Notes under the pieces: generated by a model
Seen by the model: only the letters and a program-made list of their open reading frames with translations
What the model was told of the DNA's origin: nothing
Databases searched by the model: none
Origin: Clavelina lepadiformis
Lineage: Eukaryota > Chordata > Ascidiacea > Aplousobranchia > Clavelinidae
Length of the DNA stretch: 64,000 nucleotides
Assembly: GCF_947623445.1 (NCBI RefSeq)
Contig: NC_135244.1
Location: 19,406,860 to 19,470,859, forward strand
Direction: 5' to 3'
Part shown: positions 15,460 to 63,794 of the stretch, piece by piece
Position numbering within the stretch: position 1 is the stretch's first letter
How the letters are laid out: each line of letters starts with the position of its first letter
Translations under genes and position numbers: made by a program

Positions 15460-15689
15460 ATAATAGTTTCGTCACAGACACCATTAAGTTCGCACACCAG
15501 CATCGTATTAATAACAATGACAGCAGGGAGCAAGATCGACAAAAGTAGCTTTCTGAGTGCAAAGAAATTAGTACGGAAAGAAATAAAAGTGTTGTTCGCA
15601 TATTTTAGCAACTCAAAATTAAATTCTTATACTACTATATATCGCATGCAACGGAGAGCTGCTCGCGTACCACATGAAAAGCCCCAGCT

Positions 15690-39517: not shown

Positions 39518-41062
39518 CACGTTAGCAGTGCAGGATTAAGGTGGATGCTATTGATGCTGCAGCATTAGGCCCAGACGAAAACAGACGTGAATTTTCCGGA
39601 CGTTGAACAGTTTTCCTTTGCTTAATTAACCCACAAATAATTCTTATTATGAAATTTGTAGTCCGACTTTCGCACGCCTAAGCACAGTGTTACGCCTAGG
39701 CACGTAAGATAAAGCAAGATTTGGGCATAGACTACTTATTTAAGATGAAAAATTATAACACTTTTCGAGCTGTTTCAGGGCCCTTCATTACTTCAGCCGC
39801 AGATAAGATGCACGGCTTTATTAACTCTTCCCCAATCGTGTATGCTTTTTTTGGTTTTAACTATTCGTAGAGAAACTAGATAGGATTCATGAAGAAAGGA
39901 TTTTTCGGTAGTCGTCATCTTTTCAATTGCTTTTTTTAATCGTTCATATCAGAGAATATTCGTCCAAAATATTCAAGTGGCTTGCCTTCAAGATTGTTGT
40001 GCTTTGAATGAAAGTGACGAACAACTTTAGAAGGTTTCATAACGTCATTTGGCAGAATTTGGGAGCACACCAAACATTAGGGCCGTGACGATTGTTCACT
40101 ACCCGGAACTATTGTAAAACCAAGCTCCAAGTATTTTTATTGTATTGCCTGACAAATTCCCCTTTTCGTTTCTTACTTCCCTCTGTGACACTCAACTTAT
40201 CTGCATATGCCCTTTTCGTAGTTTACATTTGCACCTACTGATACTTGGTTCATTTCCATTTTGAGAATTATTTGTTTCAGAAGTCTTAGTTTTTTCCTTC
40301 TTGTTAAAATACACTTGTTGGTTCGTTGATTCTATATTAATCCTTCTGTAGTTTAACAGGACAAGCTATTGCAACATCTGAAAAGTGAAGAATGACCTTG
40401 TATTACAAAACTTTTTGAAAGCTAGACGCAGTTTATGACGAAACAATCATAAACGGCACAAAATCTAGGTCATCGGAAGGTTAACCTTTATTATTAAACA
40501 GTTCTGCTGTATCAACGAAGGAGAGATAGGCTATGCCAGTTTTAGCCTGCTGCTGTGAATCGGCCAAGCGTAAAATGAGTTTTACAGGAAGTATCAACTT
40601 TGCAATGCTTATGATTCCAGATTAAAATTAGCTTGGCAGAAAGTAAGATACGGTACTTCGCGGACCGGCGGTTGAGAACCACTGAGTTAGGCTAAGCCTT
40701 AGGAATAGATTAGGTTAAGGCAGTAAGATTAGTACTCATTATGGTTGGGAAAAGAGTTAGCAATCATTATTGTTGAGTTCAATGTTGTTTCATTGCCGAT
40801 TCACAAGCTAACACCGTGCAAACAACTGCCGGTTCACAACAAAAAATGATGGAAACCAGTGTCAGTTTATAACAAAAAATGATGGAAAGCATTGGGGTTC
40901 ACTTGGACGCTAGCGACTGCCTTAATTCTAAGACAATTGCTAATGTTTTTTTTTTGCAGTGTGACGTAGGCTAAATATACGGCGTTGTGTTTATTGTAAC
41001 GGAAGATTTCAAGTTAATGCGATAAATTTTACGGTTCCACAATTTACAAATTTAGCTGCGTT

Positions 41063-43169
41063 TTGTGCACGCTTGCTATGGCGTCTCAACTCAGTGGATG
41101 GGATAAAGCGAAAAAGAAAAGGAAAGAAGCAGCAGAACAAGAAAAGCTTCTGGCGAAAATTCCAAAACTGAGTTCATACTTTGGAATGCGAGCAGCTTCG
41201 TCTCAATTGCCTGCGTCGGATGCGATTGCGAATTCGAGCGCTCCTGAAGACCAGGCCAAGCAAGATGAACCTGATGAGGAAAGAGAGGATAAAGAGCGGG
41301 AAAGTTCAGCGGAGAGAGCAGAGGTGAAAGGAGACGCTATCACTGGCGAAGCACTGGCGCAAACGCTGGAGGATATCACCAACGGTTTCGACAATTGGAG
41401 GACAGGCGAATCCAGAATAAAAATGCATGAAAGCAGCGATGGTCATCGCAAGGCTATGTTGTCTTTTGCGAGCCGACAGAGGGAGGCCGGTCGTGTTGAC
41501 TACCTAGCCGCTAAACAGGTCGAGGAAGAGCGGTGTTACTGGCGCCAGATTGTAAAGCGGCTCATCGACGTTCTGATATTCCTAGCTAAGCGTGGCCTTG
41601 CTATAAGGGGCGCGGATGAGATCATAGGTTCCCCTCATAATGGTAACTACCTTGGCATCATTGAGTTGTTGGCGGAGTACGATACTCTGCTGGCTAGCCA
41701 TATTAGAAAATATGCGAACTGCGGGAAAGGTCACATTTCTTATTTGTCATCCACAATTTGCGAGGAGCTGGTGCAGCTCATGGGACAAAAGGTGCAGGAC
41801 ACCATCCTGAAAGAAGCCAAGAAGGCGAAGTATTTCTCTGTCTCGATTGACTCTACACCTGACGTATCACACCTCGACCAGCTAACGATTGTTATTCGAT
41901 ATGTTCTGCCGTTGGGTCCAGTTGAACGGTTCCTGACATTCTTGCCTATGATGAGACACACCGCTACGCACATGGCTAGCATACTTCTGAACTTTCTGAA
42001 GGAAAATGGCTTGGATGTTACTAACTGCAGAGGCCAGTCGTATGACAATGCGTCAAACATGTCAGGACGGTACAACGGTATCCAGGCAATTGTGAAGCGA
42101 GAATGTAAATATGCTGCTTTTATTCCATGCTGCAACCACAGTTTAAACCTGGTAGGAGACCAGGCTGTTAATAGCTGCGCTGGCTGTACCAGGTTTTTTC
42201 ATTTTGTCAATGGACTATACGTTTTCCTGTCTGAATCGACATATCGCTGGCAGAAACTGAAGAATCGCTGCACATTAACGCTCAAAGGTTTGTCTGGAAC
42301 CCGATGGTGTGAACGTGCAGATGCTGTCAAAGCGCTAGTAGAAGGGTGGAAGAGCATTCAAGAAGTCCTGGATGAGCTTGCGGCAGATAAGGAGCAGAAG
42401 GCCGATACGAGAAACCAGGCCGACGGATTTTCGCGCAGGATGGACGAACTTGAGACAGCAGTTATGGCGACTGCCTGGAACGATATCCTATGCCGTCTCA
42501 ACAGTACGAGCATTAGCCTCCAAGACCCTACAGTCAGTCTGAATACGGCAACTAGTTTATTGGCATCACTGGTCGACACGATTCAATTTGCACGGGACAG
42601 ATTTGACGTGTATGAGCAGATGGCGATCGAAAAGGTTCCTCACGGCGAATACAAGGCTGAAGAACGTCGAGGCCGTAAGCGAAAGCGAATGCCTGATGAA
42701 GGAGCTGCAAACGAAGAAAACCTCACCCCTAGGGAAACATTCAAAACCCATATATATCTGGTCATGATCGACAGACTGTTAGCTGAACTGGAAAAGCGAA
42801 TGAAGGCGTATGAGGATATATCTACAACATTCGGATTTCTTTCGGAGCTAACGTCATTGAGCATAAAGCAGATCGAGAATAAAGCTCAAAATCTCGTTTC
42901 CTCGTATCCAGATGACTTGGAAGACACGCTGGTGGCTGAGCTCATACAGTTTGCTGCATTTATGCGCACCCAGAAATCGGTGAGTGTGAACGAGTCAGCA
43001 GAACTTACCATGTACAAGCTTTTGTCGTCGTTGAACCTTTCTCAAACATTTCCAAACGTCGAGATTGCTTTGCGCATCTATCTGTGCTTGATGGTGTCTA
43101 ATGCCTCCGGCGAGCGGAGCTTCTCAAAACTGGGAATAGTCAAAGGAGAGCTGCGGTCCTCGATGAGAG
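41063..43169 (+). pseudogene. hAT transposase (ZMYM1/DUF4371-like), 5' part; interrupted by insertion
   Basis: 702 codons before the insertion point. Motifs: WRTG..H..SDGHRKAML (C-terminal half of a TTF-type finger), KYFSVSIDSTPDVSHLDQL (first Asp), RGQSYDNASNMSGRYNG (second Asp), CCNHSLNLVGD, LSGTRWCERADA, and the dimerisation block LCLMVSNASGERSFSKLG. The inner element enters after a codon in ELRSSMR. The true ending is at 63324-63442; together they make a frame of 742 codons. The cysteine half of the TTF finger is not seen. Start MASQLSGWDK at 41078 is also possible. Confidence 0.9.
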
Positions 43170-43292
43170 CACCCCATTCGTCAAGGATTAGCCCATAGGA
43201 AAGGGAAAAAAGATTGCATGGATTACCCATTCGTATGGGCTAAAAAGAATATTTCCATCTCTTAAAATAATTGTTGTAAGGCTAATCGTGTT
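43170..43292 (+). repeat. Left terminal inverted repeat of the KDZ element
   Basis: 123 bp matching 63194-63316 in reverse complement, about 97% by eye. It holds GGATTAGCCC and GGATTACCCATTCGTATGGG; a further inverted copy of the motif lies just inside at 43291-43307. Confidence 0.93.
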
Positions 43293-45732
43293 CGAATGAG
43301 GTAATCCATTTGGGCACGTCACATTGCTGGTAGCTGTGTAGAAAACAGACAGCATACGTGAATTTACAGTGACTTCATTGCATCTACAGTGTAATAAATA
43401 GTGTCATCCCGCATATAAGCTAGGTTGCTTGGCCTACATAGACCTAAAACAATTGGCGGTAGTTGAAATACAGGACCCTGTATTGGCCTATAGCCTACAT
43501 AATGTCCTTTGTAATGAAATGACTTATGCCTACAGATTATATAGGTATATAGTCTAGGCCTATAGTACAGGCTACCAGTATTCCAGTACTGCACCGACAC
43601 ACTAAAATGTTTGCAAGAAGGCCTATATGCCCTATAACTAACTTTGAAACACACTTCAGTAGAATATTAAATATTGCATCTATCATGATGATTGTCAGCT
43701 AGTAGTGGTAAGCATCCCGGACTGCTGAGTAATTGAGTTTGGAGCTTTTTTCCCCATCATTAAGTATGAACATTCACCGAAAGCTGCCAAGCCCAATATG
43801 CGACATTAACGTTTATGAAAAACAATATTGGGTGCTTCCTTGCCTAACTTTGCAATTTGGGTGACATCTATCTCACCGACTGCCAGTTATACCCATTGTG
43901 GAATGCGTGGCAACTACACAATCAAGGTTTTTAAAGACTATGCTTGCTGCACCCGAATATTTCACATGTAGACACTACCTCTTGCAAACACAGGCCACAG
44001 TTTCTAGATTTTGCCAACCAAATTGCAAAGTGTACCCCACCCCACCCCTACTCATCCTCCACCTAGTCATTCTAGTTTCAGCCATCTTGCACTTCTAAGA
44101 TCTCGTTGAAAGGTGCAATGATTTCAGTGTGGTCAGATTCTAAATTCAGAAAAAAACTACAACTGTACATGCCTAGTCGGTTACAGCTTACGCTATTTGT
44201 ATTTTGCTAGTCTACTTGGGTCTTGAAATAGACACTTATTTCACTAGGTGCCAGTAGCCGAAGTAAGAAAATACAAATATGAAAAATGGCAGTTTGGCTA
44301 GTCTGTCACGTGGAAGGTTTGCTTCTCAGTATTTACGGTTCACAGTTGGGTAGTTGTGAATATAACATTGATTGCATGCATTGTAATTTTTCAACTTAAC
44401 GGTTACAGCGTTAGACAGAATAATCAACTTTTTCGTTACAGAATCACAACCTTTATCTTTGCGCAGCGTGACTAGAGTTTAGTAACTGAACTTGTTTTTG
44501 TCTAAGTTTCAACTTTTTTATTTGAATTTTTTATATTGTATTTCTCGAATTTGAAACTGTATAGTGAATTTGAAATAGCTAACTACGAGCGGTAGCAAGC
44601 TGAGCCAGGTGCTTTAACTGCTACATCTTTGAGCTGGCATTTTGTGCAGGAGCTAATTTATAAGTACTAACTGTTTGAAAATCAAGGTCTTCCACACATC
44701 ACACAGACTTTTGTTACCGGCACAGGATTTCAAGGGCTAGATTAAACATCATGGTTCAGCAGGTTGAGCTCCTGTGAGTCTTGCATAGTTCATTCTCCAG
44801 GCCCTGTGTACCCAATTGTAATGAAATGAACCTTGTAAATATTTGCTGGTTACCGTAGTAGAAAGTGTGGTGTAAGACTTAACTTACCTTAAATTGCTTA
44901 AATTTAATTTAAAATGTTAGAATTCCATGTTACTTACTTCATAAGCAGATAGAATTTTACTCAATTTTTACTATATATTGTTGGTCTACATGAGCAGATC
45001 TTAACCAATGGGCTATTACTAACCTATGCAATCCTTTTATGAACAAAAATTATTTGCACGAAAACGTTTTCTTGTTTATGAGTATATATTGTAGGCTACT
45101 GCCACTGGCTAAACAGACCCAAATAGATGTGGATGACTCACATCTCACTGATTAGAACTTTCAAGTATTAAATATATTGCTGAGATATGTATACCTTGTG
45201 TTTGTGGCATATATCATATCAAATTGTCTGGGCAAGCAAGTCGCTGCAATGGTATGCAGGTATCATAAACAATAGACTACACTATGGTATGTACCTCCAT
45301 GTTAATGCCTTGTTTATTCGTATCACCGGTAAGTTTGGTAATTTATACATACAGTACTTGAAAAACTCGCTAATATAGTTACATTAAATAATAATTATAA
45401 TCTGCAACACTGTATTGTAAATTATGAATCATGACATAGGATCATAATTTTTTCTTAACTGAGACAGCTATTGAGACCAGGTATTCTCAACTTTTGTGCA
45501 ATCATATGCAGTATATTTTATATATACATTTGAATGTATTCTTTTTAGCTTTATTTTCAGATATAGGCTTCCCAGCTGATTTAAATTACACTACAAAATC
45601 TAACTGAGTTAGTAGTGATCTAACTTTGAAATGAATATTGCACACTCTTACATAACCCCTCCCTCTTTGTAGGATTGAATTTATTGTTGTAATTGTTAGA
45701 CAAAAATATCTATAGCACAAGAATTTGCCTGT
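43293..45732. other. Interior of KDZ element, left side, no gene seen
   Basis: No recognisable exon or protein motif. Presumably contains the transposase promoter. Confidence 0.55.
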
Positions 45733-48700
45733 ATGTTTACTGCAAATGGAAACTTGACCTACGTGTCAAGAAATGGGAAAAATAAAAGGAGTAAGTACAT
45801 TTACTATATTTTACTATGTTTTTTACGTTTTTTATCTAACGTCTGTTTAAATGGGATAGCTAATAAGATAGTAATTAGTTTCTTTTCATACCAATTTCAA
45901 GCGTTAATACCAAGAATTTGTTAATCTAAATCAGGGTAGTCCTGTTATTTTTTCTACATGGGGCAGCAATAATAGTGGTTAGAGTAATCAATATATTGAT
46001 ATATCTTTTCCATTGCATAGGGAATTACAAAAGCTAAGTTTCGATATTGGGTAAAAGAACCCAAAAAAAGAAAACGACCCGTTTACCTCTTTGGCAAAAC
46101 ATTTGGTCCAGCGTTGAAACCCAATGCAAACAGTCACATAGTTACAAGAGGTTCTGTGGAAGGTGATCTAACTGCTACAAATCCTGAAATACCAAGCACT
46201 AGTAATGTTAACAGTTCTTGTGGAGGTGAATGAAAGAAATAATATAAGGAGATTTACAATATATTTCACATTTTTATGCTACATTTTTTCTGAAAATAAT
46301 CACTTAACAGTCATATTGAATACTGCATTTTAATTTTCATGTTATCACAGAGTTGGAAGAAAATTTAAATTACAAAATCAGAAGAGAGAAGCTGTCTTCA
46401 GATTGGCGATTAGTTGAAGAAAAGTTGTTTAAGTTGTCCATAACCCTCTATTCTCCTGAGCGACGTACTTGCTGTGTATGCTTTGAAGAAGTTGCCAACA
46501 TAATTCGTTGTGGAGATTGTGGGCCAAATGTATATTACTGTCGTCAGTGCTGGGATAACTGTCATTCTTTTGTTTGGTATCATTTGCCAGACATATGGAT
46601 GGTAATTAATAATTATATACAAATATCTTTATTTTTGTAAAGGTTATTCACAAAAAGACCACTCATTTATCTGGATATAAAAGGCCATTAATGTTTGTAA
46701 ACATTTTAGTGCTGTAGGCAGTCTTAAGAAATGTTTATTAATTTGTCTGTTGATAATCAACAATAATTATTTCAAATGTATATATATAATAAGTTAAATA
46801 CATTCGTCTACATAAAATAATTTATCATACCTTTAATTAATTACCACAAGAAAAAGTTGTCACTGGCAGAATATTAGAGGAAAAGAAACAGTAGCTTACA
46901 TTTCTTTAAACTGGTCTAGACAACAATGTCATAGTTGCTTTTTGTGCAGTAGAATGTAAAAACTGTTTGGGTTAATACTGTAAACCAAGTATCTTTGCAA
47001 TTATTCCTACATTTTTACCGGAATGTATCGAATAATGTTGAACTTAGATCTCTGTTTACAATATTGTTAAAAACATTTTCACAGCTGAGAAATGCAAAAT
47101 GTGTCAAAAATGTATCTGAAGTATAAAAAGTAAAAGACAATACTGGTGCCATATGTATGACACATTTTATTTCATGGCCTTCAAAAGATTCCCCTCCAAC
47201 ACATTTTTCAAAGCCCTTCCATTATACCACTACTACTTACTAATAAAACTTTTTTAAATGCTCAAACATCTCCAGGTCTCTGCCAAATCAGTAATAGCAA
47301 GACTGGCAGCTGGAGAATGATGTTTGTGCTTGTTCTTTTTTTAGCTGTAAGTTGTTTCAAATCGCTCAATGTCATCAATTATATCAATGATAGGCAGTTA
47401 TTCAGACAAATCTGGAACAAAAAATTCTGTGCAACAAAGTGAAGCATCCAGGCATGATGAAATTATAGAATTAAAGTGGTGAAGGAGATTTTAAGTTAAG
47501 CATATATTTAGGGAAAACGTTTTGCAGTTCTTCGTTAAAGTTTAGCTGCTTCTGCTCACAATGTATCACAGAAGACAGTTGGAGTAAGATAAGGTTGTAA
47601 ATGATTGCTTTTTGAGACAGCCTAAATATTTCAGTGTAGAAGCCATGTTACACGAAATCAAAAAAATGTGTTGTTGTGGTATTTGACCACATAGGAAAAC
47701 AAAATTAAGCGGTAAGCTTCTACCCATGTTAAAATCGTTGATTAAAACAGACTTAGTTTTTTTACAGAACTATTCCTGTATTTCTCGTGTATGTACCAAT
47801 ATCACTTAGTTAAAATATCCAAACATGCTCTTGCAATTTTAGTCAACATATTACTTGTAACACATTGTTAATGGTATTATTTACACTTTACAGGGTAACA
47901 TGTTTTGCAAAATGGTCACTCCGATACGACTTTTGAAGAGATTTGATGGTCATGAATGTCAGTCAAGTTACACTCGACACATTACAGTGGTTGATTACAA
48001 AGGTATAATTTTTTTTATTCCTTTGCATTTATTATAAATCATCTCTGCCATTCTTTCATCCATTGTTTTCTTGTTCATTGGCAAAGTTTGCATTTTAGGT
48101 TTTGAAAATGTGGTTTCTGTACAATTTTGCTATTGTGAGAGTGAGCCTGAAACTCTGTTAAGATTAAATCTGTGGACCTGTTCGCCCAAAAAGCCTAAAC
48201 TAGCAGTATCCATTGACCTATTGGAATACTTTCGAGCCTTGTGTCTCGAAAAACATCTTTCCACTGAAGGATTTTGCCATGCTCTTGAAAATAGATTTTT
48301 GCGAGTACCTGGATATACAGCAGGGGTTAGCACTTTTTAGTGTTTTGTATTTCTAAGAAAATCCGAAACAACCTGTGGATGTTTCTTGTTTTTTTTGTTT
48401 TAGGTAAAGTCTTTGTCAAGAGTTTTGCTACAAGAAGTGGTTGAGGCATATAGACACCATGTCTATAAGCTGCAACATCTGCATGGTTTGGTCTCTTCTG
48501 ATGATATAGATACGGGTACCCTGTGTCCAGCATGTGAAGGGGTAAAGCTAAGAAGTGTGATTGAAAGTTCCCAGGCCTCTGTGATCGAGTGTAAATGCTT
48601 GGCTTTAACTGCGTTTTGTTGGTAGAATCCTGAAGGTATGCGGACATATTGCTTAGATGCAAATTTTGGTTTGGTGAGAAGAATTTTGTCCGGGAGTAGA

Positions 48701-51700
48701 AGCTGTGATCCTCACCACAAACAATCTTTTTTTTTAAACCAAAACGAAGTCGACAGCTTTGTAGACACCTATGATGAAAACAAATATGGCTCGGCTGTAA
48801 GTTATTTCTTAACAGTATGTACCAAAATGCATTAAAAATATTAAATCAAGTACATAACTTCAACAATTGATTTCCAATCATATTGTTATGGTCCTATTAT
48901 ACATTTCAAGGAATTTCATGCATATTTATAAGAATAAATGCTGCATACTTATGCATTAATTAGAATCATTATTTTTAGTCCAAAAATTGCAATGACTTTC
49001 AAGCAGGCAACATCATTAGATCGAAATCTAAAAGCAGTAAACTGGCTATCAAAGGTGTATTTGGTGTTTGTTGTAAACATGAGTTTCCGACAATGTTTTT
49101 TGACTTAAAACATGGTGAAAGGTAAAGTGTACATTCTTGCTTTAGTTGTTTTGTGGAAGGTGTATTACTACGGTATATATGTAGAATTTGTGTATTAGTA
49201 TTTGTAAACAATGTTTTTAAAACTGATTCTGTTGCAGGCTAGCATATGCAGTTTTAGCTATTGAAAAACTTCTGTAAAGAAACGAAAATAAAATAAGAGT
49301 TTTCTATGACATAGCTTGCAAACTGAAAGTTCATCTTCAGGTATACCTTTAAGAATTTACACATGATATTGTGTTAGTATGGCAACATTGATATACGTTT
49401 AAATTATAGGTATACAACCCATTTTTCGAAACATATTTTATTTGTAAGCAATCTACTCCTGGGTCATTGATTGCATGTCATTAGTGTTCTTAATGTTAGT
49501 GCATACTGCAGACGATGCTGTATGTGCAAGTTAGTTAATCATTTTTGCTTACATAAAATACTGCATTTATGTTTAAATAATAATTAAGATTTTGTGATTT
49601 TCTTTCTGGATTCCAATATGATTTCATTATTTAGGTCCGAAAAAACTTTGCAATTCTTAATAAAATAACATTTGCAGTACCTGTTTTTCATTCATATGGC
49701 CATATTTTCTCTTGTCAGGTAAACATGATATTTTATACCTATATATTGTACAACTGTTAGGTCAAAGTCTTTTAGTTTTATTACACTGAGCACAAGAAAT
49801 TCACCGAAAATATTAAGGTCTAATTTTGAAAAACTTGTTGTCTGTATGACAAAATCTTTATATAATGATGTATTCAAGTGTAATGAGATAATTATCTCTC
49901 AGTTTTTTTGTTCTGTTTAAAATTTAGAAACAATTCAACCCAAGGTTCCTGGACGGGTTTGGACTTACGGATGGTGAAACTGTGGAGCGATTATGGGCAT
50001 ACCTTCGTGGATTTAACAAAATCTCAAAAGAGATGAAACCGGAACATCGTACTGATTTGCTTACCGATGGCTTGATTCTTTATGGGCGCAAGATCAAAAA
50101 AAAATTGGGTAAGCCTTGTTTGTGATTTGGTCCAGATTGACTTAAGATATCTTCACGCAATTAAGTAAACTTGCATGATTTAGGTTTTCTTTTTCTTCAG
50201 CTTTCAAACATGCACTAAATAACTAAAATAAATATGACAAGCTTTAAGCTCTGTTTCAAAGGTTATGCATTGATGAACAAGCTGAAGAGAGCTAGCTGCA
50301 AAATGGAATTGGCCAAGAGTGAATTAGAAGCTATGGCAGCTTCTTACCCTGGTGGTATGTATGATTATGTGTCTTTGTATATTTGTATTTGTATCATCTA
50401 TTTGAATTATTATATTCCATGTTATTTATTTTCAGAAATGAGAGTATAACATTATACAATAAACCTTACAGGAACATTAACACAACATCAATTAAAAGCA
50501 ATAGCTCTGCAACCAGAGCCGTATTCTTCTGCAGAAATGGCATCTTTTTCTTGGGTAGAAGAATACTCACTTAAACTTCAAGAATACTACTGGTTGAAGT
50601 GAGTTGACTAAATGTTTTCTGAATGATACATTTTTCAATACAATTTTGTGGTGTATAAAATTCATGCTAGTTACTGTTTGTGGGTTGTATTGCAAAAGTG
50701 AAAATTGCGAAACTGTTGAACATACAAATTTAAGTACTGAATCCTTTAGGAATAGAATTTTGTATAATTGTATAGGAAACTATATAATTTTGTTAATTTG
50801 TAGAGAAGAAGTTGAAGATTTGACCAAGGAAATAACGTCTGAAATACTTTCTGGAAAAGTTGACCAAATTGCTAAGTAAGCTGAAGGACATATCAATGTT
50901 AAATTGAGTTACTACAATAATTCCCCAGACATAAACGAATATTGTTACTTCCCACTGCTGCAACATCAGAAACCATTAGAAAAGCTTATAAAACAGTAAC
51001 AACAGTGTATCCACCAAATTTACTGTGATAAAGTTAAAACCCACACAATGATGGTGAAAATGCAGTATATGGGAGTTCAATTGCCAAGAGTATTGTTTGC
51101 CAGGACATGATATATGCTTTCTTCATCGATGTATTGCATGTTCTTCTATTTTACATATTGTATGCGTTGTTTTGTAGACTTGACAGTCATCTTTCCAAAG
51201 TTGAAGTAGAAAACGGTATATTGATTCGTTGGGATGTAAAAGATGATATGATGCTTAAATATTTGTCAAGTGCTGTGAAGAAAAAAAGAGCAGAAATTTT
51301 GGAGAACATTTATAAATTAAATATCGAAAGAAAATTTTTATCTACTTTGATTCAAAAATACCCAGGTAATTTGTGCATGCACTATGCATGGGGTTACATT
51401 ATCGATAAAGCTACTGTTCTGTTATTTTCAAGTTTGTACATGATGATTTTTCAGCTGGTCAAACAATTGTTCAACGACTAGTGCGAAGCATCAGGAAGGT
51501 TAACAACAACATTCGTCATCAGATTACTATGTATAATAAATACCAGAATGTTCCACAAAATGAAATGAAAAGCATAACTTTTGAAATGGTTGTCGGGTCT
51601 GGGCCAGTTAAAAACGTACCTGGTTTTATTGAAAAAAAAATCAAGGAACAACATTGCATTCGGGAAAGGTGCAAAGAAGAAATGTGTCATTTAAAAGAAG

Positions 51701-52038
51701 ATATGACAAGTGTGATGAACTTCTATCAAAAGCAAATAAACATAGTGTCTAATCTTGTAGAAGGCTGTGAGGTTGTGGAACCATATGTGGTTACCCATCA
51801 GTTGCAAGCAGAGATCGAACTTCTTTCTTTTATAAATGACATTAAGGGCACAGTACCTTTTCAAGCAAATACACCTCTGCTCAATGAGAAGCTAGGCACT
51901 TCCGATATGGCAAAATTGGACCCAATGGAGAAAGAAGATGATGAAAGTGAATCACCAATAAATTTATCTGAGCTTCAACACATTTTAACTGAATTTGGCT
52001 CGGAAAGCGAAGGTTCAGATAACGAAGATGAAGCTTAA
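45733..52038 (+). pseudogene. KDZ-class transposase, about 16 exons, one in-frame stop
   Basis: DNA transposase with a cysteine cluster followed by an RNase-H-like core. Phase-consistent exons: 45733-45790 and 46034-46225 (tentative), 46351-46601, 47894-48002, 48099-48325, 48404-48541, 48626-48796, 48979-49121, 49238-49340, 49635-49718, 49928-50108, 50262-50354, 50472-50598, 50804-50875, 51178-51365, 51455-52038; 907 codons. Motifs: CCVCFEEVANIIRCGDCGPN with YYCRQCW (zinc cluster), LLRLNLWTCSPKKPKLAVSI, CPACEG, YCLDANFGLV (Asp), GVFGVCCKHEFP, FYDIACKLKVHL (Asp), AVPVFHSYGH, GFGLTDGETVERLWAYLRGF (Glu), and an acidic C terminus. TAA at 49275-49277 interrupts the exon just before FYDIACKL, so it is either disabled or a sequence error. 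Confidence 0.88.
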
Positions 52039-52039
52039 A

Positions 52040-55000
52040 CTAATTAGTTTTAACCCGTGTCCTTGAGTCAGTTATGCCACAAAATTACGTTTAACTGCAT
52101 TTGTTTCCATTTTTTTGTACGCATTTCAGTTATTAAACGTTCATTACATATATACTTGCCATATGTTTGTTTTGCCTCAGAAACGTTTCCTAGGCAGTAG
52201 GCAGTCTATCAAATATTTCGCCTTTAATTGTCGGAAAGGAAGAGTACGATGATTGCAAAAAGGAGCAATGCACGTCGACCTAAAACGTGGAAAGACCTTG
52301 ACCCTTTGTGCTATAACGGTGAAAGGTTAACGACGGCTACCCAACACACCATGCGTTTCACGGTGATACTGTACCAAATAAGATTTTAGGAAACTTACAG
52401 AACGTGCTCGTTGTTGATAGGCACATGGACGGTTAAAATAGAACTCGGTTATAAGAAACAGCATTTTAGGGATTAAGACCCCGCTTCTGTTGCCAGAACA
52501 CATCAAACCCTCAGAGTTCAAGCATTCTCCAATTTCGATGAAACTGTCCAGTAAATAAGCATGCAAAATTTAGTACACTCTGTATTTTGTCACTCTTTCG
52601 CTGTAAGCTTACTTGTTTAACTTTCAATTATAAACGTGCGTGGGATCAACAAACTTCTTATTAGTTTATACTTTTGCTGGCCAAAGCAAAAATGTTACCG
52701 GTATAACTTTTTTTAATTAGATACAGGCTAAGGCTTATAATAATTGGCGTTGGTTTCTTTAATGAAAGAAAAATGCACAATTTTTCTTAAAACAGTCCGC
52801 ACAAAAAATGAATTTTTTTTTAAATTGTTGCGATTAACCATGCCTAATTTGTTTATTCAATATTTCAATGCTGTTTTATTCTCTTAGAGCTACAATCATG
52901 GAAAATTTTCATTTCCGTGTCAAAATCTTCACCTAGTAAATAACAAAAAAAGTAGTATTTGTCGTCGTGTGATCCAGTTGTTATTCAGCCCATCAAGCTG
53001 AGTGGAAAAGAGTGAAAGCACAGGAGGTTGGATGCCGGCAACTTGCTGACCGCAAGGAAGAGAAGGTTTTTCAATGATATGGCACCCAGACATCCAGTAC
53101 GTTAAACATCGTAGTATGCAAAATACCGTTTATGACAATGTGTACTTGGTGGTTGTGTGATGCGACACCAGACACAAGTGCAGTAAGCTACTCAGCGATG
53201 GAGTAAAGTAAAACCATCGCTTTTTTACGGAGAGTAGCAGCCTAGTGCCCGAGCAAAAGGTATCATTTGTCTTTCCAAAGCGATCCGGGATATTCGTTTC
53301 TTGCGTAGTGACTCAAGTTGTCGACAAAACGTGAGCCAACTGTTCGAGTTCGACAAAACGTGAGCGAACTATTATTCCGACTTATTTGGGGACTGGACAG
53401 AAGAGCGCGTAGATGTTTAAGAAGGAGTGCCATCGATCCTTGTGGGATCCCGTCTTTAAGGCGTCATAGCTTGTTTCGCTTATTGTGACCTGGGGTGAAG
53501 ATACTTCTCCGTTTGTAAACTAGCTCCATGGTTATACGGATTATGTACCTGTTTTGTCTGGGAGTAGACGCAGCGGCTTGCAGGCAAAGCTTCGGTGCCA
53601 TACTGTATCATAGGCAGCTGTAAGTTTATGAAGTACAGCACCAGCCTTTTTGTTAATCCCGAAGCTTTTCGCGATGTTCTGGATCATAAGGGTGACCTGG
53701 AATTCAGCCAGGGGAGAAGTTGTCGATTATGGGTTCGACGCAGGGGTAGACCAAGCGTTTGCGGACTTTCAAGAGGACACACAAAAGAGACAGGGGCAAC
53801 AACTCTTCGGGCCCTAAATCACGATGATAAAAGCTCTTGAAATTTTGTGACCCAGAACCTTGCTTGGCTTTGTTTGATGGAGCACAGCAGCGAAGTCATT
53901 TGGAGAGAAATGGCCAGAGATGTTTTCGCCATCAGGGGTTTCTAACCTCTAAAGGTCAGACACTTCTTTTCCAACAAGTTTGGTCCCTCTTTTCGTGTAT
54001 TCCGCATTCAGTCAGTTGCGTGGCGAATGTGTTGGATGAGAAAAAGCGCGGGCGTATTGAGTAAGCTGACCGGCCAGCGAAATTGTTCAAGACACTGTGA
54101 GCAGTATTGATAGTATTGAGCTTATAGGTCTGTCCACAGCGCTAGCTTCTTGGGATTGGGTCTCTGCAAGACCGAAGGGGCTGCTTTACTAGAAGCGGTA
54201 TCTACAGCGTCAAGAGAAAAGAACGGTGGTAAAGGACGTGACGTGGTGTGTCACTAAGTTTTAAAGTTATAATTGCTGAAGCGATGCAATAAATAATAAC
54301 AGTAGGTTGTAAGTCTTGCCAAGGTTTCTCTTTTGATATTTTATTAAAATACAGATTTAATAAAAAAAAACTAACCATTTGAGAAAATTTTCTTTTCGTT
54401 AAACTTATTCATAATTTTAATAGTTGGCAAAACCGGCAAAAAGATCTAAAAATGCGTTTTATTGATCTTGTTTTACCATGTGAACCCGAAAGAGGATCAA
54501 AATGTCATACAACAAAAGGGTTATAGGCTACTTTTATAAACGCATGTTGAGTGTTAATACGCATTTCAAATTCCGACATGATATTGTTGGAGATATTTAT
54601 GACAAACTTGAATTTTATAGCCTTGCAGCGATTGAGCTCGCCTACCTCTTCAATAATATCATATCATACGACAGAAGAGATTATTACGATGAAATGTGTT
54701 CGACCCACACGTCAATAAGAGATAAGAGCTTTCAACTTATCTTGCATAGAATTTTCATTGTTAGGTTGCGTCCTTTTTAAAGTGGTTAATTTAACCTTCC
54801 TAAAAAGGTGTGAGTAACATTTTGAAGTTAACATCACGATCTTCTGTTTTTAATGTGGCCACATCAAAATTAGCATGCGATCAACTTATCAAAGAAACCT
54901 CTTATCATGTTACGTCCATTTGTATTCGTCACGTCATTGACTTTTAACGTAATCGCAAGTGTGACTCGTTTAGGCTACATATCAAAGTTTTGCACATATT

Positions 55001-55570
55001 GCAACTACTTTTTAGTGAAAGTGTCACGAAAAGTGATATTGAACCCCCATATTACTATGAAATTTTGTTAAATTAAGTTAAACGTTAATGTTAAATTAAG
55101 CCTTAATAGAAAATCAATGTACCAAAATACAGCAGTGAGTCATTATCACTAAAAATGCTTTGATTCAGCACAGTATATTTTCCGAAAGCGCAGTCAAAAA
55201 GTGAAAAGCAAAATTACGAAAATATTGAAGACGGTGAAATAAGTAAAAAAACAACAAACAATTTTAACGAATGTTAACTTTATACAATGACGAAAATGCG
55301 GACATAAATAAAGGATGAGGTGCTAAAATGGAATGAATGATCGCAGCTTACGTTAATAATAAAAGACTATAAAAGAGGCACACTACAAATCTAACTGTAC
55401 AAATAAGGAAAATTAGCGAAAAGTAACTATCCGCTCACCAATACGTGTGTGATATAATTATATACTGTACAGTATATTAGCACAATAGGTTGGTCAGAAG
55501 AAATCATTGCACCGTTGTACGGCAATGTAAAAATAACAAACATTACCAAAACGAAACTGGCAAATGATGT
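52040..55570. other. KDZ interior between the two genes
   Basis: 52950-54250 is visibly richer in G+C than its surroundings but has only broken short frames. An AT-rich segment around 54360-54780 holds a 92-codon ORF. No family is recognised in either. Confidence 0.45.
54502..54780 (+). CDS. Unrecognised 92-codon ORF inside the KDZ element
   Basis: MSYNKRVIGYFYKRMLSVNT.. to ..RIFIVRLRPF, TAA. Aromatic- and charge-rich composition, and AT-rich codons. No motif, no visible splice partner. It may be chance; nothing supports a function. Confidence 0.15.
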   Translation: MSYNKRVIGYFYKRMLSVNTHFKFRHDIVGDIYDKLEFYSLAAIELAYLFNNIISYDRRDYYDEMCSTHTSIRDKSFQLILHRIFIVRLRPF

Positions 55571-55573
55571 ACT

Positions 55574-55862
55574 GTATTTTACGGACCATAAGGCGCACCG
55601 GGCTATAAGGCGCATTGTCAATAAATTGCTTTGATTAGTTTTTTGTTCATACATAAGGCGTATCGGACTATAAGGGCATATGGCTATAAGGCACATGTGT
55701 TACCGTATAAAGCTCATTAAAATACGTTGTGAGCATGCGCATACGCATTATGATCCATACATTAGGCGCACCGGCTTATAAGGCGCACCGGCTTATAAGG
55801 CGCACGATCAATCTATGAGGAGAAAAAAGGATTTAAAGTGCGCCTTATGGTCCGTAAAATAC
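55574..55862. mobile_element. Palindromic MITE, GTATTTTACGGACCATAAGG ends
   Basis: 289 bp with perfect 25-bp inverted repeats beginning GTATTTTACGGACCATAAGG. The interior repeats CTATAAGGCGCAC / CTTATAAGGCGCACCGG several times. It lies just beyond the last exon found for the minus-strand cargo gene. This ATAAGGCGCAC family is widespread in animals as I recall; superfamily not assigned. Confidence 0.8.
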
Positions 55863-56116
55863 GGGAATTTTTACTCGTTATACATATAACACTGAATCAC
55901 GAACAAATTACCAATCTACTGTTCTATGTGTTGGTTCAGCAAAGTGCAAATGTTCCTCATTTTCACATTCTTCCGTTGTCACCAAAAGAACTAAATTGTT
56001 TTCTGCCAGCTCCAAATTACTATAAAGAGCAACAAGTATAACAGAAAGCGCACAGCGTAAAATTTGCAATGTAATCCTTTTATGCATGCAAAGATTACAG
56101 AAATCCCATCACTTAC

Positions 56117-58907
56117 CCCCTTTTCATAATTATAATATTTTCTTGCTCATCTATAATTTTCTGGCAATCGACTGGACCATAACTGCCGGGATTTCGAAAG
56201 GGGATTCCACAAGGCATTCCAGTGATGCTGAACTCGTTAATTTTAGCATACGGCATACGTCCATTGGATTTGTGCATTGTCTCACCTGTGAAGCACCAGA
56301 GCAAAGATACCAAGGCATGCACAAACACAACTTAATATAATTAAGATGAAACAATTAGCATCAATTCTATTGTATTACATTCTATTGCTTGGAAAAATAC
56401 GCAACACTAATAATAAAATTTTTTATTTCACACCGTTAGGCTAAAGAAAGACAATTTGTTGGCATAAAAAGACTTACAATATTTCTTATTAAAAATTTTT
56501 CGAACTTTCATTTGCAATTCGGTGTTTTTTTGTCTTGAAGTACTGCAAGCTGTATACAAATATATAGCATACGTTACTTCTAATGAAAATTTTTTCATAC
56601 TTTATGATTAACATGATTCATGATGACACTAATATCATTCAGGTTCATATGCAAAAAAAATCTTCAATGAATTAAAGTTAAAAAATAAGTGCTATAAAAG
56701 TTCCTTTTAATATATGCTTGCAGTAAATGTAACTGTAGTTAATCATGTTCTTGCAAATGTTTAGAAATATCACAGTAAATTACATAAAATTACCTTTTCC
56801 GCAATGTAATATCTCAATAAAGCCACTTTGAACACTTGGCTCCAAGAAATATGGCCTTACATCTCTGCTTCCAAATGCATTGAATGTATCGTTAACAAAT
56901 GCCATTCCACCAACGGCCACACCAATTTCCTCAAGTTCACCACACTAAAACAGGAACAAGTTACCTTTGTTTCGTGTACAGCACGGTTACACCATAGTAT
57001 AATATGAACAGCAACATACAGCTTGAATTATTCGAGCAATGGCATTTTGTCTAAGTTTTTTTTTTCATATTTCCATCCATTTCATTTGGTGGCATGGAAC
57101 TTTCAGAATTGAAGGTCTTTGCTTTCTCTTTCCAAACTTGTTTTGTTTGCTTCAAAAGTTCTCTCCACCTGCTACCCCAGAGTTTGAAATCTTGAAAAAC
57201 AGCAATTAAAAATTAGTACAGAACATTTGAAAGCTTTATAAAAAAATGAACATAAATTGAAAGTAAGAAACACTGAAAACAGGCAAGACCTTACTTCATG
57301 CAAAACACTTTGATAACTTGTCTAAACTAGTACTTTCATTGTTCAACTGTTAACATAGTGAAACCTTCATTTATGTAAATTTTGAAGTTGAGTAGAAGCT
57401 TACACCTCTTAAGATTTAACAGCGTCAATCAATGTTAACATCTTCGATATCTAAGGCTTTCTAATAACCAACATAACAGAAAACACATTTTTGGAAATTC
57501 ATTACACACGTATCATGTGAGGTCACAAATAGCATGCACTTCAAGTCATGCATCATTCATTATGTATCATGCTCTTCACTAATCGAACTAACACTGTGAC
57601 ACAAGTTTCACAATCAAACCGAAAAAAAAAAAATTACGACATGCAAATTTAGTAACGAACACAGTAAGCATGAAATCAATGAATGCAATTTATCGGGTGA
57701 AAAACAATGAAAATTATTTTCAGTGAGAACTACATTTGTGCATTTAACGACATAATGCTAATGACTCAATGAAGCAAGCGATCAATTAAGCAAACCAGCC
57801 AGAATATCAGACCTTGTACATATCTTAAATGAAACACATGTGATGCTGTCTAGAAGCTTCTCCCTTGAAAATTTGGGAAGAAATCATGCAACTGTATTAA
57901 AAATACCAATATTCTGTTTCTTAATGGAAGAACAAAATAGATTGTAGCCTGTGAATCTTCGTTTTCGAAAAGGTTTAACTTTTTGAACCCTTGGCCTTAT
58001 CGATGCATTGTAATTGTAAATCCAGCGCTAAAACACAGCAGTTGGCAAAACGCTAGTAAACAAGCGTCAAAAGTATTTAGTAGTGGCAGTTTAACATACC
58101 ATCATACAAGAGATCTGAGAAAGGGACAAACTTTAATCATTTTGTAAGATCATGCAATAAACATGCAATAACTACTTTAAGTTGGAGAGTTGTCCCGGAC
58201 AAGGAACGGAGCTTTTTGTCAGCCAACAAGATTATTTTGGCGAAGACAACTGTTGCAATCTTTGAACTTAAAGTACGTAATGGCATCTTTCAACCAGAGT
58301 TCTATCATAATAGCCTACTTCAAGCGGAAATTACAGCATAGAGTTACAGTAATGAACTGTAACTTGTTTGTAAAGCAGGGAGTGCAGTTCTACAGCTTGC
58401 GGTAATACTGAAAGAGCTGATAACTACAGCAAGTATGAATTATGGCAAATAAAACTTTAATCTACGATGAATCACCTTGATTTGGTTTTTACTTAAACCA
58501 GTATTAATGGTTGCTTCATTGAGGTGCTCTGACTTTGCAGTTCTCATACCTTTTGTTTCCCACAAAGATATAAGCATATCCCGTTGGCTTTGTGAAATGT
58601 CCTTACTGAACAATGCAAATCAAATTATTAATAAGTGAGACACAAAAATATTTTTTTTTAAATTGAAAATACAGGTTGTCTGTATCTACACGAAATATCT
58701 TACGTCCATCTGGACGGCAATTTAGAATAGCGTTTTATTAACACTTTTAGTGACTTGTATGCAAATAAACAGAGTGACATGAAAAAAATGCCATACTAAC
58801 AATTACTTATTTATGACCAAAGATCGAATTAAATATACAACAGATATATACATATAAGTTAGCTATTATACATGAAGAACTAACCGAGATCTTCTAGTGC
58901 TTGCCAT
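56117..58907 (-). CDS. KDZ cargo gene: HTH, HMG-box-like segment and unrecognised C-terminal domain (3' end unresolved)
   Basis: Exons: 58907-58885 (ATG, MASTRRS), 58605-58476 (helix-turn-helix, QRDMLISLWETKG and TGLSKNQIK, resembling a homeodomain-like fold), 57989 or 57995-57907 (KRRFTGYNLFCSSIKKQ), 57190-57020 (DFKLWGSRWRELLKQTKQVW then KEKA, completing an HMG-box pattern), 56944-56794 (CGELEEIGVAVGGMAFVNDT..), 56285-56117 (NEFSITGMPCGIPFRNPGSY then G). The link between exons 2 and 3 is out of phase, so a small exon is probably missing; 58114-58100 is a candidate but does not fix it. A run of ten T at 57056-57065 shifts the frame, where nine would keep it open. The C-terminal exon after 56117 was not found. 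Probably a DNA-binding accessory factor of the element; inferred. Confidence 0.55.
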
Positions 58908-58909
58908 GT

Positions 58910-61900: not shown

Positions 61901-63190
61901 ACACAAGACATTTATTTTCTAGAGGCCGTTTATTATCATTTTTAATTTGTAATAATCTGCAAACTCATGAATGCATATAATCGACAAATAGCACTCTTTG
62001 AGAACGATTGAAACCTTCGTTTGTTGAAAGTCAAGACAAATTAAATGATTGCCTTTTGCTTATGATCTGCATATCAGATGGATTTCCTTTTTGGAATACT
62101 ACAACGTTAAGTTGCTCATTCACTCCACTCAGGATTTCGAAGTTCTCTGACAATCACACAAGATCACTGTACTCTGCAAGCTCGTTATGTAAGAAAGCAG
62201 CAATGTTGAGTAGTAGCCAGCTTTGTAGCCGAATGGTTAGAGCTGGCAATTAGGCAGTGTTCACTATCCAGTAGCACTACCATTGTTATGCCCTTGGGGT
62301 ATTACCAATGCTTGCTTCAGTTCAGTGCTTCTGATAAACATACCTAAATTCAAGCAATAAAAAACATATGTGTATCATTCCAAACTTGCTTGAGAGCTAG
62401 CCAGATAAGTGGGGCTGGAGCAATTAAAGATTACCACAAAGGTTAATGGAAGCGAACTAAAATGACATATGAAGTTATACTTCTATCCTAGCCGCCAAAT
62501 AAAGAAAATCATGTTGATTGCTGTGAAACGCTTTGACCTTATGCCACAGCAGTGGTATGCCACGTGTATATAATTGATGCAATCAGACCAGCTTGAAGGC
62601 AAAACTATTTCAACCTGATGCTGAATAAAAGCACCATGCAATTACCACAATTCAATTTAATACATTGCATGAGCACTGCAAACCCGAAAAAGTGACTTTT
62701 GGCTACTAGAGTACCGGTCTATCGTTGGCTGGATTGCCAGTTCAAACACCATTGTGCATTGCACTGTGCAACAATTAAGCAGTCTTTAGAACTTGCTTGG
62801 ATTCTACATTCAGTAAGTAAGCATGCAGCTATTCCAGTGCCTAGAAGCCCGAGGTAGATAACCTATATCTTGTCTACGAAACAGGACCAATTAAGCAGCG
62901 TTAATGCCAGACACACCAAACGCATGAAAGAACTGAAATCGAAAACTAGGCTATTTTGTTCATTTCAGCCTTTTCAGATTTTTAGTAAGATCCGTTTATA
63001 ATTTGTGCAAGGCATTCCAACGTGCATCAATCACTATACAAACCTTATCCATACATACCGGTATAGATCTCAGTAGTCTTCAACAGTAGCCTAACAGTAG
63101 CCTAAGCCATCCAATCGTACCGTACGATGACCAGCCACAGCAGTTCGACTGGATTACTTATTCGACCTATCGCTCGGTTGGATTACTCAT
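58910..63190. other. KDZ interior, right side, no gene seen
   Basis: About 4.3 kb with no exon series. A short direct repeat TTGTTTACAAGCACTT (twice, 59670-59705) and a possible SINE head at 62218 are the only structure noticed. It presumably contains the cargo-gene promoter near 58910. Confidence 0.5.
62218..62275 (+). repeat. Possible tRNA-derived SINE head
   Basis: TAGCCGAATGG resembles an A box and GTTCACTATCC, about 30 bases on, a B box with a one-base insertion. Weak; no poly-A tail or duplication was identified. Confidence 0.35.
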
Positions 63191-63193
63191 ACC

Positions 63194-63316
63194 AACACGA
63201 TTAGCCTTCCAACAATTATTTTAAGAGATGGAAATATTCTTTTTAGCCCATACGAATGGGTAATCCGTGCAATCTTTTTTCCCTTTCCTATGGGCTAATC
63301 CTTGACGAAGCGGGTG
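63194..63316 (-). repeat. Right terminal inverted repeat of the KDZ element
   Basis: Mirror of the left repeat. Just inside it two more motif copies, GGATTACTCAT (63180) and GGATTACTTATTCG (63151), extend the subterminal array. Confidence 0.93.
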
Positions 63317-63323
63317 ATGAGAG

Positions 63324-63442
63324 AGGAAAGGCTAAACATGCTGGCGCTTATGAGCATTGAACATGAGGTGCTGAGCAGCCTTGACTGCACTGACATGATC
63401 GAAGATTTCGCGCTTGCTAAGGCTCGAAAAACAGTAGTATAA
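63324..63442 (+). pseudogene. hAT transposase, 3' part (after the inserted element)
   Basis: Continues the frame broken at 43169: RLNMLALMSIEHEVLSSLDC then a final DFALAKARKTVV and TAA. This is the normal end of the hAT dimerisation domain. There are no stops or shifts in it. Confidence 0.88.
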
Positions 63443-63786
63443 GTAAGCAGCACTAGCGCAGCATTGACAATATGCCAACGTTAAGTTGATCTGGATTAGC
63501 CTTTTCTTCATTAACTCCGCTTTTCAGGCAATATTGGTATTGAATTGTGTTGGTGTTACATAGCCTGATGTTACTCTCGAGTTTTTACGATAACACGTCG
63601 TTATTATTGTTCATGTTCATTAAAATTTGGCTGACTGCGTCGAAAGCAATAAAGGCTCTTTGGTCGGTCTGATTACGCGTGTACGGTGGAGTCAGAGTGT
63701 CGAATGCATATGTACCAATGCCTAGAAAAAATAGGCCTGTTTTTGCGTTGCAGCATCAGGCCCAGTTTCGTCTTAATCCGGCCCTG
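63443..63786 (+). other. hAT 3' UTR and right end
   Basis: Non-coding tail of the outer hAT between the transposase stop and the terminal repeat, containing GGGCC-type subterminal sequence that mirrors 39570-39580. Confidence 0.6.
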
Positions 63787-63794
63787 CACGTTAG

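Follow-up and report, generated by a model that had tools for sequence, protein, structure and literature searches.

A KDZ element with two convergent genes nested in a hAT transposon of the ascidian Clavelina lepadiformis

A KDZ element inside a hAT transposon

The window, the whole stretch of 64,000 nucleotides that was analysed, comes from the genome of the ascidian Clavelina lepadiformis and holds a hAT transposon of about 4.1 kb (39526-63786), which is split by a KDZ element of 20,147 bp at 43170-63316 (Table 1). The outer gene matched the hAT families PF14291 (E 1.4e-16) and PF05699 (E 1.7e-5), the latter being the dimerisation domain (24.9 bits, above the cut-off of 21.4), which together with the 8-bp duplication CACGTTAG places the outer element in the hAT superfamily. 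Its termini, CAGTGCAGGATTAAG and CAGGGCCGGATTAAG, match at 13 of 15 positions, and all 24 matches to the right end, window counted, reach 63786 or run at most 5 bp beyond it. The hAT duplication and ends given in an earlier sequence-only reading stand. Four sister hAT copies (L079-L082) are continuous across the KDZ insertion point and represent the empty site; in L082, 6 bp are inserted about 30 bp upstream of that point. Removing one 7-mer and rejoining the two parts gives a transposase frame of 736 open codons, counted from the ATG at position 41078. The earlier reading was right that the frame is open on both sides and rejoins; its figure of 742 codons was not reproduced, a difference without consequence. 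The ends, the duplications and the four empty-site sisters confirm its central claim, that a 20.1-kb KDZ element lies within the transposase gene of a 4.1-kb hAT element. No Rfam family was found in 39000-64000 and no tRNA gene in the window.

Four inverted pairs were detected in 39000-64000, of which the longest (43170-43300 / 63186-63316, 131 nt, 95% complementary) marks the KDZ ends, with 4 mismatched positions between the arms over the first 123 nt; the remaining three have arms of only 25-33 nt. Elsewhere in the genome, near-identical copies are present on several chromosomes. Pairing of left and right ends yielded 16 copies on 8 contigs, with arms 19.9-21.3 kb apart; all have both arms in common, and two unrelated insertions supplying the two arms, or ends that differ between copies, are therefore rejected. 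Among these 16 copies, for which both flanks were read, 15 carry their own duplication, perfect over 7 bp in 14 and matching at 6/7 positions in one (C6:17732938), and one (C8:7635779) has none (2/7 matching). An 8-bp match was seen in none of the 16, and only 3 of the 15 duplication-bearing copies have, before their 7-mer, the G that completes the 8-mer of the sequence-only reading. Since the other copies settle the length, the range of 7-8 bp proposed earlier is narrowed to 7 bp. The pairing used 23 of 42 left-end and 25 of 52 right-end entries and left 7 left and 9 right ends unpaired. Five of the seven unpaired left ends (C6:6655428, C4:17611609, C3:25306984, C2:23719095 and C1:10577211) have a partner among the right-end matches and stand outside the count of 16. 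All copy numbers are lower bounds, because 40 of 145 candidates were scored in the first copy search, 40 of 143 for the left ends and 40 of 133 for the right ends. The window differs from copy L071 (C4:15224842) at 3 positions in 9,759 bp, and 7 copies of the 19.9-kb group, located on seven contigs, do not differ by a single letter over their left 2,100 bp. One further full copy outside the count of 16 has right-type ends on both sides, C4:1778191 and C4:1800736, which face outward 22.5 kb apart and share the 7-bp flank match TCGAAAA (by eye).

Table 1 Features of the nested elements in the window
Feature	Position	Strand	Basis
hAT target duplication CACGTTAG, 8 bp	left 39518-39525, right 63787-63794	.	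read at both flanks
hAT element, left part (interrupted)	39526-43169	+	sequence read, sister-copy comparison
hAT transposase frame, first part, resumes at 63324	41078-43169	+	open frame; DUF4371, Dimer_Tnp_hAT
KDZ target duplication ATGAGAG, 7 bp	left 43163-43169, right 63317-63323	.	flanks read, other copies
KDZ element, 20,147 bp	43170-63316	+	inverted repeats, copies elsewhere in genome, 7-bp duplications
KDZ left terminal inverted repeat, 123 bp (CACCCC...)	43170-43292	+	repeat search, letter-by-letter comparison
Left-end TAATCC (GGATTA) motifs, 3 sites	43185-43307	.	motif count
Gene 1, KDZ transposase, 16 exons, 906 codons	45733-52038	+	GT-AG model; PF18758, PF18803, PF18802; NCBI protein P0007
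Gene 1 exons 1-8	45733-45790, 46034-46225, 46351-46601, 47894-48002, 48099-48325, 48404-48541, 48626-48796, 48979-49121	+	GT-AG model
Gene 1 exons 9-16	49238-49340, 49635-49718, 49928-50108, 50262-50354, 50472-50598, 50804-50875, 51178-51365, 51455-52038	+	GT-AG model
Gene 1 premature stop TAA, codon 443	49275-49277	+	copy comparison, gene model
Gene 2, homeodomain-like / weakly HMG-like / terminal GTF2I (TFII-I-type) repeat	55908-58907	-	gene model; parts of exons in Clavelina proteins P0001-P0004 (by eye)
Gene 2 exons	58885-58907, 58476-58605, 57907-58027, 57020-57190, 56794-56944, 56117-56285, 55908-56019	-	gene model
Gene 2 exon with window frameshift	57020-57190	-	run of A one base longer in window than in copy L070
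Gene 2 optional 72-nt exon, gives GTF2I repeat start	56478-56549	-	in P0003, P0004; absent from P0001, P0002; bounds by eye
Right-end TAATCC motifs, 4 sites	63151-63301	.	motif count
KDZ right terminal inverted repeat, 123 bp (...GGGTG)	63194-63316	-	repeat search, letter-by-letter comparison
hAT element, right part	63324-63786	+	sister-copy comparison, right-end matches
hAT transposase frame, last part incl. stop	63324-63442	+	rejoined frame

Two convergent genes within the KDZ element

The KDZ element carries two convergent multi-exon genes, gene 1 on the plus strand and gene 2 on the minus strand. The sequence-only reading had described a transposase-bearing mobile unit with complete ends, which holds as far as the ends are concerned; it overlooked gene 2, and both genes are broken here. 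Spliced gene 1 matched the KDZ domain PF18758 at E 2.7e-45 (155.2 bits, cut-off 26.6), and a CxC cysteine cluster precedes the catalytic domain (CxC2, PF18803, 46.2 bits against 27; CxC1, PF18802, 37.5 bits against 26.9). The domain above its cut-off, the CxC cluster, the terminal inverted repeats and the target duplication place the element in the KDZ superfamily. The NCBI protein P0007 aligned with gene 1 gap-free over its 740 aa (98.9%). Sixty-four homologues were obtained at E <=0.001 among 3,693 candidates, the closest outside Clavelina being from Ciona intestinalis (57%). In a tree of 28 of the 64 homologues and the window, in which the entries are without subgroup labels and the fungal branches are long, the proteins of Clavelina and Ciona group together in a single clade (100/100). 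The TAG at 48623-48625 was rejected as a stop, as it sits in an 84-nt GT-AG intron, which is consistent with a copy of a second Clavelina family (family 2, below) and with the Ciona protein.

Gene 2 products appear in public records as uncharacterized Clavelina proteins, and all proteins found in two homologue searches (4/4 and 6/6) were from Clavelina. The GTF2I repeat (PF02946) is a DNA-binding repeat familiar chiefly from vertebrate TFII-I transcription factors; in the gene 2 products an intron falls after its first conserved stretch. It scored 37.3 bits in the public protein P0003, above the cut-off of 27, and lay below it in the family-1 form that lacks the optional exon (23.6), in P0001 (24.2) and in P0005, a family-2 protein (12.8). 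Compared with solved TFII-I/GTF2IRD1 repeats, P0003 reached a best E of 2.8e-6 and a profile of the two families 3.9e-8. P0005 matched the homeodomain PF00046 at E 2.7e-4 (21.1 bits, just below the cut-off of 22.9), and all 11 PDB matches up to E 10 were homeodomains (best E 0.0098); the family-1 protein gave no Pfam homeodomain match up to E 1. We call gene 2 homeodomain-like only, because the Pfam cut-off was not reached. The HMG box PF00505 scored 12.0 and 9.1 bits in the gene 2 proteins, under its cut-off of 25.4, and AlphaFold2 run on two alignments gave no confident structure (mean pLDDT 34.8 and 39.5).

Of the 11 TAATCC sites of the element, seven fall within the outer 200 bp at one or other end; simulation gave a mean of 0.37, and none of 5,000 simulations reached this count. 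The motif was selected after looking, and 2 of the 7 end sites are terminal-repeat mirror copies of 2 others. This clustering suggests that one or both element proteins may bind the TAATCC-rich ends.

A second family and the movement of the element

The same convergent gene pair is present in a second, diverged KDZ family of the same genome. GTF2I matches above the Pfam cut-off were obtained at 5 loci, all of family 2; family-1 copies are absent from these matches because their repeat is split over exons. At four of the five loci a KDZ match lies 5.2-5.7 kb away in convergent orientation, and the fifth, C6:5723881, was without one in the KDZ search. In the family-2 copy on C2, the transposase aligned with family 1 in 11 pieces (28-71% identical) and gene 2 in five pieces (E <=0.007, 26-54% identical) on the expected strand; a sixth gene 2 piece (E 0.30, other strand) was set aside. 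Over aligned codons, the transposases of the two families share about 50% identity. Differences at the three codon positions are.42/.28/.59 in gene 1 (725 codons) and.47/.39/.66 in gene 2 (215 codons), figures biased towards constraint, since a protein alignment was used to choose the codons. No inverted ends were seen in the 14.5 kb of family 2 that were read. As the pair recurs in a diverged family, gene 2 has probably long belonged to the transposon rather than being chance cargo.

The likely history is that one copy of a recently mobile hAT element was hit by a two-gene KDZ DNA transposon that was itself recently mobile. The KDZ transposase would cut at the CACCC/GGGTG ends and, by analogy with the cut-and-paste of known DDE transposases, would paste with a 7-bp stagger. 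The window copy, whose own transposase frame is interrupted by a stop after the first and before the second catalytic region, would have been moved in trans by the transposase of other copies. With less certainty, the gene 2 protein may serve as an accessory DNA-binding protein that targets its own promoter or the TAATCC-rich ends.

It is possible, though rather unlikely, that gene 2 is instead a passenger, a host gene of TFII-I/homeodomain type captured by a tunicate KDZ ancestor, without a role in transposition and kept only by short-term selection or drift. Host-type genes are already known in KDZ elements, namely TET/JBP in fungi according to the available part of PMC12730594. In addition, 15 of the 22 codons of gene 1 that changed between the window and copy L069 alter a residue or a stop, which indicates little constraint among recent copies. 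A pure passenger should nevertheless have decayed, whereas the convergent pair has been kept in two families with transposases as diverged as these.

That the element is an ordinary Kyakuja, or Zisupton, we regard as unlikely. It has the KDZ domain, and it shares 7-bp duplications and 5'-CA..TG-3' termini, along with an added gene, with the two TET+ Kyakuja families of Laccaria. In the accessible text of PMC12730594, however, these families are reported without terminal inverted repeats and their added gene is a TET/JBP dioxygenase, whereas the Clavelina element has 123-bp repeats and a homeodomain/TFII-I-type gene, a type that did not appear in the portions of the literature consulted. The same text gives 8-bp duplications for Zisupton and a Dileera family, a length found in 0/16 copies here.

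As to the movement of the KDZ element, the window copy is disabled by the stop in gene 1 and the frameshift in gene 2. In L069/L070 gene 2 is open and gene 1 has a different early stop; among the copies with whole gene sequence, namely the window, L069/L070 (both genes) and L071 (gene 1), none was shown to be wholly intact. A 61-mer spanning the gene 1 stop of the window is exact in 6 copies; in 5 of these the 7-bp duplication differs from copy to copy. As five insertions share the stop, such copies were probably mobilised in trans; gene conversion between copies could also have spread it. It is improbable that the codon-443 stop is harmless and trans-action unneeded, the window insertion and its relatives having spread by a working truncated or alternatively spliced transposase: the public protein model P0008 does skip the region around codon 443, but its splicing deletes FYDIAC, which we take to be the second catalytic region and which is retained in family 2 and Ciona. 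Hardly credible is a gene 2 that is an unrelated host gene or pseudogene under the element, or an element that is a chimera of two neighbouring insertions, since, for all that the gene 2 products are publicly uncharacterized, the gene sits between terminal repeats that match and duplications of 7 bp, a different contig has the same stretch in copy L070 (97.6% over 9,139 aligned positions) and the convergent arrangement recurs at 4/5 family-2 loci.

Comparison with known KDZ and TFII-I systems

Although KDZ elements as such are known, our literature searches turned up no description of one carrying this second gene. No paper was found with both GTF2I and KDZ, and none of the titles and abstract beginnings among the best matches listed for TFII-I origin, transposons and tunicates, covering 20 of 38,376, 15 of 86 and 10 of 538 papers, made the link. 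Neither did the best 10 of 384 literature matches, from a search with most subscription journals outside it, include a KDZ or Zisupton element with a homeodomain or HMG box. With exact ends, empty sites and 15 insertions that fix the duplication length, these full-length near-identical animal KDZ copies allow an assay to be built. Zisupton is about 11 kb long and has a single coding gene. A 2025 paper (PMC12730594) calls Zisupton the sole KDZ group, out of three, that is well characterised as a transposon bearing terminal inverted repeats and duplications; this element of fishes is likewise an animal KDZ with both features, with 8 bp against 7 bp in Clavelina. Cryptococcus KDZ1-KDZ3 share the KDZ domain, the CxC zinc cluster, terminal inverted repeats (139-241 bp) and short target duplications, and differ in their length of ~9.2-11 kb and in target duplications that measure 8 bp in KDZ1 and 4-8 bp in KDZ2 and KDZ3, as given in the accessible text of PMC12810828, from the 20-kb Clavelina element with its 7 bp and second gene.

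As a partner protein for KDZ elements, the gene 2 product would parallel the TET/JBP genes of fungal KDZ elements. A TFII-I-type repeat inside a mobile element also makes the origin of the domain testable; the available part of one survey lists one such repeat among six tunicates, in C. robusta, and zero in lancelet (PMC8122590, Table 1). As a long shot, tunicate KDZ elements may be two-protein transposons in which a self-encoded homeodomain/TFII-I-repeat protein binds TAATCC arrays in the ends and cooperates with the transposase, and the I-repeats of these elements may share a mobile ancestor with those of vertebrate TFII-I (GTF2I, GTF2IRD1). A vertebrate transcription-factor family would then descend from transposon accessory genes, or transposons would have captured it before vertebrates diversified. 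The TFII-I family (GTF2I, GTF2IRD1, GTF2IRD2) has the same GTF2I repeat, its solved I-repeats being matched to E 3.9e-8. Mammalian GTF2IRD2 is also linked to a transposon, in its case through a fused Charlie8-like hAT transposase, as described in the available part of PMC10641963, whereas in Clavelina a single repeat stands in a separate gene, behind a homeodomain-like part and beside a KDZ transposase.

Nested insertions and their copies

The window lies in a 209-Mb assembly (C5:19406860-19470859, with C1 to C8 denoting contigs). Public records of near-identical relatives of the element's proteins carry the name Clavelina lepadiformis, whose published genome is given as 210.1 Mb and 9 chromosomes (PMC10884593). 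The outer hAT transposon measures 4,107 bp once the KDZ insertion is subtracted. Its transposase frame is open as far as the insertion point, and rejoining the flanks minus one 7-mer gave 736 open codons with a stop at 63440-63442. When the hAT 3' part was used as a DNA query, 24 matches were obtained: the window, 22 others and one partial match. The 22 cover 768 of the 770 query bases at 99-100% identity, indicating that the hAT is itself a recent element; the last two query bases were unmatched in all 23 non-window matches. Four sister copies (L079-L082) were read and run unbroken through the insertion point, with ATGAGGG instead of ATGAGAG. The simplest account is that the A was already present in the window copy when the KDZ element inserted and was then copied into the duplication.

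Features of the window and of the nested elements
Feature	Position	Strand	Remarks
Outer hAT transposon	39526-63786		flanked by 8-bp duplication CACGTTAG
Inner KDZ element	43170-63316		begins CACCC, ends GGGTG
Gene 2	58907-55908	-	7-exon model plus optional 72-nt exon
Short frame inside KDZ element	53541-53726	-	by eye, resembles a LINE reverse-transcriptase remnant
Inverted repeat	55574-55862		25 bp, perfect, around 17-bp tandem units; probably small nested element
Another hAT transposase piece	14713-15471	-	Dimer_Tnp_hAT, E 3.3e-9
Probable host gene	27112-28221	-	Cir_N domain (CBF1-interacting corepressor), E 1.1e-12

The 123-bp terminal repeats of the KDZ element differ between arms at 4 positions, and genome searches with these ends found, among the matches listed, paired ends 19.9-21.3 kb apart on many contigs. 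In 16 copies with both flanks read, the 7-bp duplication was perfect in 14, matched at 6/7 positions in one and was missing from one (C8:7635779). The element probably moves by cut-and-paste: the duplications are observed, and a DDE-type KDZ transposase would act at the 123-bp ends, making cuts staggered by 7 bp. The copies form groups: the window and C4:15224842 show 3 differences in 9,759 bp, and the left 2,100 bp are identical in seven copies of a 19.9-kb group, including C8:7635779. One 19.9-kb copy was read in two parts, which align with the window at 98.7% identity across 9,135 positions (L069) and 97.6% across 9,139 (L070). Between these parts, directly following gene 1, the transposase gene, the sequence of this copy is unrelated to that of the window for about 0.9-1.0 kb (52303-53208 in the window), which we regard as a swap or replacement inside the element.

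Other arrangements of the ends were also seen. A 22.5-kb copy at C4:1778191-1800736 has two right-type ends and, by eye, a matching 7-bp flank, TCGAAAA; two inverted ends lie about 500 bp apart at C6:16854461-16854961, possibly a short non-autonomous derivative. Behind four right ends (C8:13939652, C8:13642181, C3:173914 and C1:28125075) the interior is diverged, with 70-81% identity to parts of window 52310-53200, and these probably represent a further subfamily.

The transposase gene and its internal stop

Gene 1 was modelled as 16 exons with GT-AG introns, comprising 906 codons and a stop, and its product contains PF18758 (KDZ) and CxC clusters. The stretches LDANFGLVRR, FYDIACK and DGETVERLW, which we take to hold the KDZ catalytic triad, are kept with small changes in Ciona and in family 2, a diverged KDZ family of the same genome. 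In the window, codon 443 of gene 1 is a stop, which falls after the first of these presumed stretches and before the second. Across eight copies checked, it is present in the window, L071, L083, L084 and L085 and absent from L086, L087 and L069, the last having no stop there but one at codon 23. An exact 61-mer including the stop occurs in 6 genome copies, 5 of which have their own distinct 7-bp duplications. The sixth, C1:12402063, has the same left flank as C1:12430478 and appears to have arisen when the locus was duplicated. The left ends of these two are 28.4 kb apart, through local duplication or an assembly fault, and no right end for C1:12402063 was found among the right-end matches listed.

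The stop is common to independent insertions, so most of these probably transposed only once it existed, using transposase from elsewhere; such dead-transposase copies would have been mobilised in trans. Alternatively, gene conversion between copies could have spread the stop. A public transposase protein (P0007) is open across the codon-443 region, so at least one copy encodes at least a 740-aa form.

A second gene shared by two families

Gene 2, convergent to gene 1, has an open frame in L070; in the window one additional A shifts the frame. Four Clavelina proteins contain differing combinations of parts of its exons. Its C-terminal part is a GTF2I repeat (37.3 bits in P0003, against a cut-off of 27), with GTF2IRD1 as best solved-structure match (E 2.8e-6); forms without the optional exon score 23.6 and 24.2 bits, under the cut-off. 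The N-terminal part is homeodomain-like by sequence comparison. P0005, the family-2 protein, matches PF00046 at E 2.7e-4, slightly under the curated cut-off. Its PDB matches up to E 10 number 11, every one a homeodomain, and Bicoid is the best of them (E 0.0098). A two-family profile found Engrailed-2 at E 0.39, and the family-1 protein on its own matched no Pfam homeodomain at E 1 or below. Between the two parts lies a weak HMG-like stretch. Another Clavelina protein, P0006, joins the homeodomain-like part of family 2 to a DUF7041 domain, possibly through exon capture or misprediction.

Searching the genome with PF02946 yielded 5 GTF2I matches above the cut-off, every one belonging to family 2 (L072-L076). 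Among 31 PF18758 matches, convergently oriented KDZ domains accompany 4 of the GTF2I matches at a distance of 5.2-5.7 kb. At the remaining one, C6:5723881, no KDZ partner occurs among the 31, though a stretch resembling transposase exon 2 (by eye) lies nearby on the same strand. In the C2 copy, where both family-2 genes were read, aligned codons are about 50% (transposase) and 37% (gene 2) identical to family 1; over their full length, the gene-2 proteins of the two families share 34% identity. In a transposase tree of 29 sequences (28 of 64 homologues plus the window), a single clade (100/100) unites both families with Ciona, and the two families group together (95/91). The path between the families is 1.41, versus 1.69 to Ciona. 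Because the same pair occurs in two families nearly as far apart as from Ciona, the convergent gene pair is probably old.

GGATTA/TAATCC has 11 sites in the KDZ element, 7 of them within the terminal 2 x 200 bp, against a density of 0.20 per kb in the interior. For this motif, picked after looking, the simulated mean was 0.37 per 400 bp, and 0 of 5,000 simulations reached 7. Site number is the same in 6 other left and 6 other right ends examined. Across the 64-kb window, a longer form, TGGATTACYYATTCG (up to 2 mismatches), has 4 occurrences, each of them at a KDZ end, versus 0.49 expected. Bicoid-type homeodomains recognise TAATCC, and gene 2 has a homeodomain-like part; the two facts suggest the hypothesis that the element's own gene-2 protein would bind its TAATCC-bearing ends. 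Against this, the family-1 protein lacks, by eye, the lysine at the position specific to Bicoid, and these ends may instead be bound by the transposase.

Comparison with known KDZ elements

Nested transposons as such are ordinary. What is useful here is an animal KDZ unit that is defined to the base and present in many copies, and the surprising part is a second gene with a TFII-I-type repeat, retained in two diverged families. No paper turned up in a literature search that required GTF2I together with KDZ. Table 1 of PMC8122590 counts one GTF2I repeat in C. robusta, none in lancelet or in five other tunicates, and 15 in human. Fungal KDZ1-3, for which transposition was observed, are described in PMC12810828 as about 9.2-11 kb long, with TIRs of 139-241 bp and duplications of 8 bp or 4-8 bp. 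PMC12730594 describes two Kyakuja families of Laccaria that make duplications of 7 bp, end in CA..TG, lack TIRs and carry a TET/JBP gene; in Zisupton and one Dileera family the duplications are 8 bp long. The Clavelina element shares the 7-bp duplication with the Laccaria Kyakuja families but differs in having TIRs, and differs from Zisupton and the Dileera family in duplication length; it does not match any of the three groups completely and is classed simply as a KDZ element.
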